Shown piece after piece: positions 16,727 to 60,674 of a stretch of DNA of 64,000 bases. Position 1 is the first letter of the stretch. The number at the start of each line of letters is the position of its first letter. The position numbers were made by a program, and so were the translations under genes. Under the pieces are notes generated by a model. The model did no database searches. It saw only the letters and a program-made list of their open reading frames with translations, and was not told the DNA's origin. This DNA comes from Phycisphaerae bacterium RAS1. Its GTDB lineage: Bacteria > Planctomycetota > Phycisphaerae > UBA1845 > Fen-1342. The stretch spans positions 248,001-312,000 of the forward strand of contig SMLU01000001.1 of NCBI GenBank assembly GCA_007859745.1. Direction: 5' to 3'.

Positions 16727-19705
16727 TCACTTGGCGTCCAGCCAATTCTCCGCGCACTCGACGTCCACGCGTAGCGGCACGCTGAGGGGCAACGCCGTGC
16801 TCATGACGTCCGCGACGATGCGCCCCAGCGCCTCGGCCTCGCCGCGCGGCGCTTCACACACCAGCTCATCGTGCACCTGGAGCAGCATCCGTAGCGGCAG
16901 CTTCTCATCTCGAACGCGATTGTGAAGCTGGATCATCGCCGTTTTTATCAAATCGGCCGCCGACCCCTGAATCACCGTGTTCACCGAGAGCCGTTCCGCC
17001 AGCGCCCGGGCCGCGCGGTTGCGGGAGTCGATGTCCGTGATCGGCCGGCGGCGGCCGAGGATCGTCCGCACCGCCCCGTCGCGCCGCGCCGTCTCGATGC
17101 ACTGGTTGATGAACCCGCGGATGCGGCTGTAGCGGGCGAAATAGGCGTCGATGAATTTCTGCGCCTCGGTGCGGCTCATTCCGGTGGTCTGCGCCAAGCC
17201 GTGCGCCGTCTGGCCGTAGATGATGCCGAAATTCACCGCCTTGGCCTTGGCCCGCATTTCCTTGGTGACGGCGTCGAGTGCGACGTTGTTCACCTGAGAC
17301 GCGACAAAGGCGTGAATGTCCAGGTCGTCGGCGAACGCCCGCTTGAGCGCCTCATCCTGGCAGAAGTGCGCGAGGATGCGCAGCTCGACTTGTGAATAGT
17401 CCGCGACGATCAGCAGTTCGTCGTCCCCGCGGGCGCGGAACGCCCGGCGAATCTGCCGGCCCATCTCCGTCCGCACCGGGATGTTCTGCAGGTTCGGCTC
17501 ACTGCTGGAGAGCCGGCCGGTGACGGCGCCGGTCTGGTGGAAACTGGTGTGAATCCGGCCGGTGCGGCGGCTGACGGCCCGCGGCAGCGCGTCCACGTAC
17601 GTCCCGCGCAGCTTCTGAATCTCGCGATGCTCCAAGAGCAGCTTCAGCAGCGGATGTCCGGTTTCTTCGGCCAGGATTTCGAGCGTCTCGGCGTCGGTAG
17701 AGCGGGCGGTCTTGGTGCGCTTCACCACGCGAAGCTGCATCCGGTCGAAGAGAACCTCGCCCAACTGCTTGGGCGAGTCCAGGTTGAACGGCCCGCCGGC
17801 GAGCTGGTGGCATTCGACCACGATCTGCTCGATGCGGGCTGACATCCGCCGGCCCATGTCGCGCAGGTAGTCCAGATCGACGCGGATGCCATGGTGCTCC
17901 ATGTTCGCCAGCACGCGCACCAGCGGCATCTCGACCTCGTGCGCGAGCGTGCCCAATCCGAGCGGTTCCACCGACGGCTCGAACAGCTCCTTGAGCCGCC
18001 AGGTATAGTCGGCGTCTTCCGCGGCGTACTCGGCGACGCGCTCGAGCGGCACCTGGTCCATCACGAGCTGGTCGCGGCCGGCGCCGATCAGGTCGGTAAG
18101 CGGGATCATCTCGTGCGCGAGGTAGGTGCGCGCCAGCGGGTCGAGGCCATAGGAATTCCGCGTCGGCTCGACCAGAAACGCCGTGATCATGGTGTCAAGA
18201 ATCGGCCCGCGGACGGTCATGCCGGCGTTTTCGAGCACGATCAGGTCGTACTTGATGTTGTGGCCGATCTTCCGCTTCGTGTCGTCGGCGAGAATCGGCG
18301 CCAGGCGGGCGCGGACCTCATCAAGCGGCAGCGCCCCGCCGAAAATGCATCGCACCGGTATGTAAACGCCCCAGCTGGGCCGCCAGGAAAACGACAGGCC
18401 GACCAGTTCGGCATCGACCGGGTTTACGCCGGTGGTTTCGGTGTCGAGCACGAATTCAGGCCGCTTCGCCAAGTCTGCGACGAACGCATCCAGCGCGGCG
18501 GGCGTGTTGACGAGCACGTATTCGCCGCCGTCGGGCGCGCTCAGCGCTGCCGAACGTTGCGCAAACGCGGCGGGGTCCTGTTTTGTAGGGTGGGCCGTGC
18601 CCACCTCCTCTGCGGCGTCGGCGGCGCCCGACGCCACTTGCCCGGCGAGCGCGGCAGGCGAATGGTGGGCACGGCCCACCCTACGTTCCGCATCCCCGGC
18701 CGAGGGCGGCCGGGCCACAGAATCGGCCGAGGGCGGCCGGGCCACAGAATCGGCCGAGGGCGGCCGGGCCACAGAATCGGCCGAGGGCGGCCGGGCCACA
18801 GAATCGGCCGAGGGCGGCCGGGCTACACGATCGGCGGCGTCCGCTGCGCGATTCGCCGGCAACTGATCGGTCAATCGGCGGATGCCCAGCTCTTCGAAAA
18901 TAGGTCGGACCGCGGACCAGGTGAATTGGTCTGGTTGGGCCGCGGAGAGGTCAAGTTCGATCGGCACGTCATCGCGCAGCGTTACGAGCTTGCGCGTGAC
19001 CGGGGCGAGCGCCGCAAACGCCTTCACGTTGTCGCGCTGCTTGGGCGTGAGCTTGTCGGCGTTGTCGATCACGCCCTGAGCCGAGCCGTACTGCTGAATC
19101 AGTTTGGCCGCCGTTTTCGGCCCGATTCCAGGAACGCCGGGCACATTGTCCACGGTGTCGCCGATCAGCGTCTGCGCCTCAACCGCCTGCTGCGGCCACC
19201 AGCCCTTGGTCGCAAAGAGCACGTCCGGCGTGATGACTTCGTCTTTGCCGGGGTCGTAGAGCGAGACGTGCGGCCCGAGCAGTTGCTCCAGGTCCTTATC
19301 CTTGCTCACGAGGTAGACGTGCAGGTCGTCGCTCGATAGCCGCCGCGCCAGCGTCGCCATGATGTCATCCGCCTCGAAGCCGTGCATCCGCAGGATCGGC
19401 AGCCGGGCGGCGTTCAGGATTGAGAGGATGCGGTTGAACTGCGGCTCCATGTCCTCCGGCGCGGGGTCGCGATGGGCTTTGTATTCCGGGTAGATTTCCT
19501 TGCGAAACACGGTCTCGTCGGAGACGTCCAGCACGGTCACGAGATAATCCGGCTTCTTGTCACGCAGCAGGTTCAGGATCATCTGGCAGAAGACGTGCAC
19601 CGCCCGCGTCGGCTCGCCCCGCGGCGAGGTGAGGTTCCCGAACGGGGCGTAATAGGCGCGGTATATCTGTGCGTGGCCGTCGATCAGGTAGAGCGTCTTC
19701 GGCAT
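16727..19705 (-). CDS. polA: DNA polymerase I with repeat-derived insert in the interdomain linker
   Basis: Encodes 992 residues. Residues 1-280 form the 5'-3' exonuclease (LYLIDGHAQIYRAYYA, DADD-type acidic sites such as MHGFEADDIMA). A proofreading exonuclease follows with DTETTG near residue 418, HNIKYDLIVL and YAAEDADYTWRL, so the DEDD residues are kept and proofreading is probably active. The polymerase domain has DYSQVELRILAH (motif A), RAKAKAVNFGIIYGQ (motif B) and QVHDELV (motif C). Residues about 292-374 are unlike any polymerase. They translate a palindromic repeat of family E and five 9-residue units (RPPSADSVA), and lie between the first two domains. The frame is intact, so the gene is judged functional. 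Confidence 0.95.
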   Translation of the reverse strand: MPKTLYLIDGHAQIYRAYYAPFGNLTSPRGEPTRAVHVFCQMILNLLRDKKPDYLVTVLDVSDETVFRKEIYPEYKAHRDPAPEDMEPQFNRILSILNAARLPILRMHGFEADDIMATLARRLSSDDLHVYLVSKDKDLEQLLGPHVSLYDPGKDEVITPDVLFATKGWWPQQAVEAQTLIGDTVDNVPGVPGIGPKTAAKLIQQYGSAQGVIDNADKLTPKQRDNVKAFAALAPVTRKLVTLRDDVPIELDLSAAQPDQFTWSAVRPIFEELGIRRLTDQLPANRAADAADRVARPPSADSVARPPSADSVARPPSADSVARPPSADSVARPPSAGDAERRVGRAHHSPAALAGQVASGAADAAEEVGTAHPTKQDPAAFAQRSAALSAPDGGEYVLVNTPAALDAFVADLAKRPEFVLDTETTGVNPVDAELVGLSFSWRPSWGVYIPVRCIFGGALPLDEVRARLAPILADDTKRKIGHNIKYDLIVLENAGMTVRGPILDTMITAFLVEPTRNSYGLDPLARTYLAHEMIPLTDLIGAGRDQLVMDQVPLERVAEYAAEDADYTWRLKELFEPSVEPLGLGTLAHEVEMPLVRVLANMEHHGIRVDLDYLRDMGRRMSARIEQIVVECHQLAGGPFNLDSPKQLGEVLFDRMQLRVVKRTKTARSTDAETLEILAEETGHPLLKLLLEHREIQKLRGTYVDALPRAVSRRTGRIHTSFHQTGAVTGRLSSSEPNLQNIPVRTEMGRQIRRAFRARGDDELLIVADYSQVELRILAHFCQDEALKRAFADDLDIHAFVASQVNNVALDAVTKEMRAKAKAVNFGIIYGQTAHGLAQTTGMSRTEAQKFIDAYFARYSRIRGFINQCIETARRDGAVRTILGRRRPITDIDSRNRAARALAERLSVNTVIQGSAADLIKTAMIQLHNRVRDEKLPLRMLLQVHDELVCEAPRGEAEALGRIVADVMSTALPLSVPLRVDVECAENWLDAK
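18585..18684. repeat. Palindromic repeat, family E, in frame inside polA
   Basis: Arms GTAGGGTGGGCCGTGCCCAC and complement flank about 58 bases. The same element is intergenic at 34119-34183 and 58415-58478. Here it is translated as part of the polA linker without a stop codon. Confidence 0.9.
18698..18832. repeat. Five 27-base tandem repeats inside polA (family H)
   Basis: Unit GGCCGAGGGCGGCCGGGCCA plus CAGAATC, starting at 18698, 18725, 18752, 18779 and 18806; the last unit diverges (GGCTACACGATC). Each unit is 9 codons, read as RPPSADSVA on the polA strand. The GGCCGAGGGCGGCCGGGCTA core also occurs alone in intergenic sequence at 58287-58308. Confidence 0.95.
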
Positions 19706-59488: not shown

Positions 59489-59609
59489 TCAGAGCCGCGA
59501 CCGTGCGGGAGCGGTGCGTAGAGAACCGCTTGCTCACGCGCGCGGCTCGGATTCCGCTTGCTCACGCGCGCGGCTCGGATTCCGCTTGCTCACGCGCGCG
59601 GCTCGGATG
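59489..59609. repeat. Palindromic repeat family D with three tandem 28-base units
   Basis: The family D left arm (AGAGCCGCGACCGTGCGGGA) starts the element. Its right arm, CCGCTTGCTCACGCGCGCGG plus CTCGGATT, is present three times in tandem (59526-59553, 59554-59581, 59582-59609). Arm duplication of this kind suggests slippage or repeated copying. Confidence 0.9.
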
Positions 59610-59621
59610 TGACGCCGGACG

Positions 59622-60674
59622 TTACGTGCCGGTTTCGAGCCGGCTCAGCAAGTCCGCGTCGCGGGCGGCGAGGCTGGGGATTGCCTCGCCCGCGTAAGTC
59701 GCGACGTCGATCGGAAACACCTCGCCGCCGTCCAGGCGGCGCATCGCTCCGCCCGCCTCGCACACCAGCAGCCAGCCAGCGGCGATGTCCCAGAGCTTGC
59801 TGTCGGAAATCAGCGCCGCGTCCATGCGGCCTTCGGCCACGAGCGCGAGGTGCAGCGCCGTCGAGCCGAGATTCCGCACGACGACGCGGTCCACCCACGA
59901 GTGAATGAGGTCGAACGCCGGCCCGCGGCTCGTGCTCGGAATTCCCGCGACGGGTTTCTGGCTGATCGCGCCGCCGGCGCGCTCGTGCGACCAGCGCGCG
60001 GCGGGCTGAGCGTTGACGAGAAGTCCGCCGCCGGTGCGGGCGGAAAACATCTCGTCCAGATCAGGCCAGTAGATCGCGCCGGCCACGGGAAAGCCGCCGT
60101 GCATGACGGCGACGGAACACGCGTAGAGCGGGACGCCGCGAAGAAAACTGCGCGTACCGTCGATCGGGTCGATGATCCAGCAGTAGCCCTCGTCGCGGCG
60201 CGGCGGCGTTGGGAACGATCCGGGTGGAACGGGCGTCTCGCCCGATCCGGGTGGGACGGGCGTCTCGCCCGATCCGGGTGGGACGGGCGTCTCGCCCGTC
60301 CTGTCCGAGCCAGGAACGGGCAAGATGCCCATTCCACCCGACGCAACGGGCAAGATGCCCATTCCACCCGACGCAACGGGCAAGATGCCCGTTCCACCCG
60401 ACGAGTTTCTCCGGGTCGGCGCTGGGATGTCCTCTTCCGCAATGATCGCATCCCCCGGCCGCTGCGCCAGAACCGCGACGATCGCGGCCGCCTGCGCCGC
60501 TTCGTCGGCGTCGGTGACTTCGCTGCCGTCGGCCTTTCGCCGCGCGTGAAGCTCGGTTTTGAACGCGGCCCGCGCCACACTGCCGCCGGCGCGGGCGGCG
60601 GTTTCGGCGAGAAGCCGCAGCGAATCCAGAAACGCGGCGTTAAGGGCGTTAGGCGCGGGGCGCGGCGCGTTCAT
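59622..60674 (-). CDS. Inositol-monophosphatase-family enzyme with repeat-derived insert
   Basis: Encodes 350 residues. The metal-binding motifs are AIIAEEDIPAP near residue 77, WIIDPIDGTRSFLRGVP near 168 (DPIDGT, with catalytic Asp), and KLWDIAAGWLLVCEAGG near 300 (WDxAAG). These are typical of inositol monophosphatase and HisN/CysQ phosphatases. Between the first two motifs (residues about 90-152) is a stretch not found in the family, made of repeated GGMGILPVAS and TGETPVPPGS units. These are translations of palindromic repeats (60217-60403). The ATG at 60674 overlaps the yidC stop by four bases. Substrate not predictable. Confidence 0.85.
   Translation of the reverse strand: MNAPRPAPNALNAAFLDSLRLLAETAARAGGSVARAAFKTELHARRKADGSEVTDADEAAQAAAIVAVLAQRPGDAIIAEEDIPAPTRRNSSGGTGILPVASGGMGILPVASGGMGILPVPGSDRTGETPVPPGSGETPVPPGSGETPVPPGSFPTPPRRDEGYCWIIDPIDGTRSFLRGVPLYACSVAVMHGGFPVAGAIYWPDLDEMFSARTGGGLLVNAQPAARWSHERAGGAISQKPVAGIPSTSRGPAFDLIHSWVDRVVVRNLGSTALHLALVAEGRMDAALISDSKLWDIAAGWLLVCEAGGAMRRLDGGEVFPIDVATYAGEAIPSLAARDADLLSRLETGT
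60217..60403. repeat. Tandem family G palindromes in frame inside the IMPase-family gene
   Basis: Three 27-base units of GATCCGGGTGGGACGGGCGT type (60217-60297) are followed by three 30-base units of ACGGGCAAGATGCCCATTCC type (60315-60403). Each unit is a palindrome of the family seen at 5632 and 44911, and both unit lengths are multiples of three, so the frame is kept. Confidence 0.9.

Follow-up and report, generated by a model that had tools for sequence, protein, structure and literature searches.

GTAG-tagged REP elements in the DNA polymerase I linker of Phycisphaerae bacterium RAS1, and RAYT transposases in frame within housekeeping enzymes

How does a replication enzyme come to carry a block of repeats in the middle of its coding sequence, and is anything gained by keeping it? 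This question is raised by polA of Phycisphaerae bacterium RAS1, which lies in the window, that is, the whole stretch of 64,000 nucleotides that was analyzed. An insert is located between the 5′ nuclease and proofreading domains of the encoded DNA polymerase I (Pol I), with about 84 of its residues being repeat-encoded (Table 1). An earlier note on this DNA had described a repeat-derived linker of 80 residues, comprising a palindrome and five 27-base units that each code for nine residues, and had placed it correctly to within a few bases; its description agrees with the inverted pair and tandem array found here.

Table 1. Coordinates of polA and its features, and of the RAS1 enzymes that contain a RAYT. 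Positions with two dots refer to the window, and the others to the locus named.
Feature	Position	Strand	Source
polA, DNA polymerase I, 992 aa	16727..19705	minus	ORF + Pfam
5′-3′ exonuclease N-terminal domain (5_3_exonuc_N), aa 4-160	19226..19696	minus	Pfam
5′-3′ exonuclease C-terminal domain (5_3_exonuc), aa 170-259	18929..19198	minus	Pfam
Repeat-derived linker, aa 291-374, predicted disordered	18584..18835	minus	repeat mapping + AlphaFold
Tandem array of five family-U REPs, 27-nt period, predicted to encode (VARPPSADS)n	18697..18835	minus	TRF
Family-E REP, GTAG foot + 7-bp hairpin, one arm of inverted pair	18664..18684	minus	
Spacer of E dimer, 58 nt, GTAG feet outside	18606..18663	no strand	
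Family-E REP, second arm of inverted pair	18585..18605	plus	
3′-5′ exonuclease domain, aa 396-579	17969..18520	minus	Pfam
DNA polymerase A domain (DNA_pol_A), aa 612-989	16739..17872	minus	Pfam
gcvP (glycine dehydrogenase) with embedded RAYT, 1228-aa ORF, own domains on both sides	L142:3416-7099		
valS with in-frame RAYT, 1581 aa	L143:2681-7423		
ileS with in-frame RAYT, 1436 aa	L121:1278-5585		
purH with in-frame RAYT, 961 aa	L365		

The arms of the inverted pair were 21 nt long, 100% complementary and 58 nt apart, and TRF assigned the array a period of 27, 5.1 copies, 97% matches and a score of 257. Each repeat belongs to its own family. Specifically, family E has an unpaired GTAG foot and a 7-bp stem, and family U has a GTAG or GTGG foot followed by CC and a 6-bp stem, with the hairpin CGGCCG. 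In polA, the E elements formed an inverted dimer with the feet outside, and the U elements a head-to-tail array in which the unit closest to the start codon had a GTAG foot and the others GTGG. At one mismatch or fewer, the family-E 21-mer had 84 matches in the genome versus none for a reversed control, and hence is not a chance match, while the 27-nt core of U, which is a loose pattern, had 296 matches at two mismatches or fewer versus 97 for its control. Together, the two families formed 95 clusters in the 481 kb of genome stretches examined. Both polA repeats are GTAG-tagged REP elements that are dispersed in the genome.

Published GTAG-tagged REPs have stems of 6-9 bp, GTGG variants, feet-outside dimers and tandem groups (PMC3733652). 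In that study, Di Nocera et al. 2013 characterized 24 REP families and reported REPs within genes of several species, many of them involved in replication or repair and with DNA polymerase I named among them; the intragenic clusters encoded up to 82 residues, and flexible linkers were suggested as tolerant sites (PMC3733652). The RAS1 elements are alike in their GTAG/GTGG foot, 6-7 bp hairpin, feet-outside dimers, tandem groups and in-frame copies, including those in DNA polymerase I. They differ in that the species and the REP sequences come from Phycisphaerae, a class not shown there, and in that two families are stacked in one linker. Rickettsia palindromic elements (RPEs) are an older analogue, being palindromic selfish repeats that are translated in frame within unrelated housekeeping proteins. 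However, REP-overlapping RPEs carry a CGTC tag and have no dedicated transposase, whereas RAS1 has GTAG feet and RAYTs; with feet of GTAG/GTGG rather than CGTC and a host from the Phycisphaerae, an assignment of the polA repeats to RPEs was ruled out. Given the intragenic REPs of Di Nocera et al. 2013 and the RPEs, in-frame insertion of the type seen in polA is already known.

Structure prediction and comparison with related polA genes had both been proposed as checks on the linker; the former gave predicted disorder and the latter high variability. AlphaFold2 run with an alignment gave a mean pLDDT of 87 for Pol I, with values below 50 solely at residues 286-374 and mostly around 90 or higher in the adjoining domains, such that the linker is predicted to be disordered. 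The matching linker in 57 relatives from the same order was hypervariable and at the same place. Its length ranged from 21 to 97 aa, with a median of 45; A, P, G, S, E and D were abundant, and the sequences could essentially not be aligned. The RAS1 linker, at 113 aa, was the longest, and the REP cluster was absent from the linkers of all 57 relatives. Separately, an LF dipeptide was present in 26 of the 57 relatives' linkers compared with 2.5 expected by shuffling, often in a context such as QLSLF or SLFD (e.g., L338, L331, L346, L357), and was not in the RAS1 linker; we take this motif to resemble one that binds the sliding clamp. Additionally, polA matches in two Cytophagales (L208 and L213) spanned 3727 and 3466 bases, respectively, far above the usual, and further large Pol I insertions may therefore exist.

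We then consider what selection does to REPs inside genes. A cluster was classed as intragenic if the frame stayed open on both sides of it and codon use there was coding-like according to a simple codon model. By this measure, 18 of the 95 clusters were inside coding sequence versus about 49% of random positions (p ~1e-9, 481 kb examined), and insertions into genes are thus mostly removed. Same-strand spacings between REPs were a multiple of three in 17 of 17 cases in coding clusters versus 9 of 20 elsewhere (Fisher p = 2e-4), a test that is helped by the open-frame requirement and that includes non-independent spacings from single arrays; such spacing in coding arrays is what translation predicts. 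In-frame REPs were found in about 16 host genes of the RAS1 genome, including uvrA-, priA-, ABC transporter-, carboxyltransferase-, kinase-, heparinase- and molybdenum hydroxylase-like genes. In these other genes, the same REPs were read from either strand and in several frames, so that the encoded peptides differ and no particular peptide is selected; selection at the peptide level was accordingly rejected. Some of the intragenic insertions were in linkers, and several split folded domains.

An adaptive reading of these data holds either that unstructured linkers are selected as safe landing sites for repeats, as the earlier note had suggested, or that the repeats bring a benefit through changed Pol I activity, a mutator-type advantage that was offered as speculation by Di Nocera et al. 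2013 (PMC3733652). The presence of polA-, uvrA- and priA-like genes among the in-frame hosts is in its favor, matching the published excess of replication and repair genes. However, the depletion of REP clusters from genes, the mixture of frames and strands and the split domains speak against selection for landing sites; moreover, the linkers of relatives vary freely in length and sequence, and many of the hosts are unrelated enzymes. We regard this reading as improbable. The pattern is as expected for insertions that survived purifying selection, and we saw no evidence for a positive role.

A further possibility is that the array is an assembly artefact or that polA is a decaying gene, and copy-number errors are indeed likely in exact repeats. 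However, the assembly consists of just 7 contigs for 5.5 Mb, the array is merely 139 bp with one end unit unlike the others, and the polA ORF is open. In an alignment of 35 sequences, the catalytic residues of the 5′ nuclease (D9, D60, E111, D113, D114, D136, D138, D183, D186), of proofreading (D421, E423, D487, Y560, D564) and of the polymerase (D769, R818, K822, Y830, H945, D946, E947) were all in invariant or nearly invariant columns, and all four Pfam domains were present, in line with the intact catalytic motifs reported before. Moreover, a genome search found no second full-length polA, and this copy is therefore presumably functional; artefact or decay is very unlikely. Less probable still is ordinary linker growth by codon-level slippage with a chance likeness to REPs, since, although the linkers of relatives are likewise of low complexity and variable, the same 21-nt and 22-nt GTAG-foot elements are dispersed genome-wide, inside and outside genes. 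The insert was also considered as an intein; by eye, it has none of the residues expected at the splice junctions (an initial Cys/Ser, a terminal His-Asn and a following Cys/Ser/Thr).

The RAS1 genome contained 20 matches to Y1_Tnp (RAYT-type), many of them located between inverted copies of their own hairpin. U REPs were on both flanks of a RAYT at C1:699246, the sole such case among the 20. Around the 20 listed matches, exact E-type flanks were not seen for any RAYT; the nearest case, at C2:787010, had a longer-loop relative of E. The U-flanked RAYT was within gcvP, where U REP, transposase and U REP formed one frame with no stop. In-frame RAYTs were also present in valS, ileS and purH (Table 1), and some of these were bordered by translated REP repeats such as PLPHGRGSE. 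No further copy of either valS or gcvP turned up in searches of the RAS1 genome, and purH was at a single locus. Two tandem arrays of the 27-/28-nt type were observed in the window as well, of which one (60216-60298) has GGTGGGACGGGCGTCTCGCC in common with the hairpins on the flanks of the RAYT in ileS, and the other (59526-59608) resembles, by eye, the PLPHGRGSE repeat that surrounds the RAYT in valS.

We consider it highly probable that the polA insert consists of clustered GTAG-tagged REPs from two families, which entered the gene and lengthen the normal Pol I hinge by a translated, disordered segment. Judging from sequence, both the mobilization of these REPs by RAYTs and the translation of the insert are putative. 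RAYT-type HuH transposases would have moved the REPs as single strands into polA, and the U family may be served by the gcvP-embedded RAYT, to which it is assigned because no other RAYT has U REP flanks. Replication slippage could have raised the U REP to five copies, and a change in U copy number never shifts the frame because the 27-nt unit is nine codons. Selection on Pol I would have purged every state with a frameshift, a new stop or a disrupted folded domain. No function of the insert would be required, the hinge simply tolerating the extra disordered residues.

The embedding of whole transposases extended to other Phycisphaerae. In-frame RAYTs were found in alaS in eight genomes (L193, L306, L308-L310, L313, L315, L324), in valS in ten including RAS1 (the others being L307, L312, L314, L316, L321, L322, L325-L327) and in purH in 13 of 61, again including RAS1 (L188, L189, L191, L328-L330, L365-L367, L369-L372). 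Additional cases were in DUF1156 proteins (three genomes), ileS (two), leuS (one) and an MmeI-like enzyme (one). HuH motifs were retained in nearly all of the embedded RAYTs, which appear intact at the level of their sequences, and many had the NHVH and YV..xQ motifs, akin to class 3 RAYTs, the class with a Y----Q motif that is reported mainly from Planctomycetes (PMC6006769). The ValRS insert was at one common site in nine of the ten, shortly upstream of the DWCISRQLWWGH motif, and different RAYT lineages occupied this site. The PurH inserts were all just before the xKHxNxCG motif; they belonged to two or more RAYT lineages, which differed in their flanking repeats. PurH was of ordinary length in relatives that do not have the insert. 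At the ends of the purH and valS inserts, no His-Asn of the kind expected for an intein was seen by eye. A single ancient insertion in valS was not supported, at least three label changes being forced on the tree. For the class-3-like copies in purH, one origin fits the tree, and a different RAYT lineage was at the same purH site in other genomes, RAS1 included.

Two observations from another genome (G011) involve repeats of a similar kind. One RAYT (L287) had in-frame repeats GPNARVPKDATT after the HuH motif, like the in-frame REP insertions that subclass 2.4 has in the transposase gene according to the 2018 TnpA_REP/RAYT survey (PMC6006769). The other is a long ORF (L195:1704-3857, minus strand), by eye a UbiD-like decarboxylase, with the nine-residue tandem repeat VAQPPSAVN, which is a near-match to VARPPSADS of polA.

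In the open-licence full texts, we found no description of RAYTs inside aminoacyl-tRNA synthetases or purH, nor any paper that describes RAYTs in frame within housekeeping enzymes. The 2018 survey dropped proteins that were longer than expected, treating them as fused genes or annotation errors (PMC6006769), and RAYTs embedded in housekeeping enzymes would therefore have been excluded from it. One idea, to which we give an even chance of being right, is that RAYT-REP elements have settled in loops that are translated as part of essential single-copy enzymes (alaS, valS, ileS, leuS, purH, gcvP), which would serve them as a standing niche. The whole transposase would then be an in-frame domain, its frame staying open because of purifying selection on the host enzyme, and the same purH and valS sites would be refilled by different RAYT lineages, with the polA REPs being non-autonomous satellites of such an embedded transposase.

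The polA insert is a clean example of selfish palindromes turned into protein sequence in a replication enzyme, the hinge of which apparently tolerates doubled length, and the depletion figure for genes provides a genome-wide estimate of how strongly REP insertions are purged. Transposases inside essential enzymes without splicing would, if true, constitute an intein-like lifestyle without an intein, and annotation filters discard such transposases as fusions.
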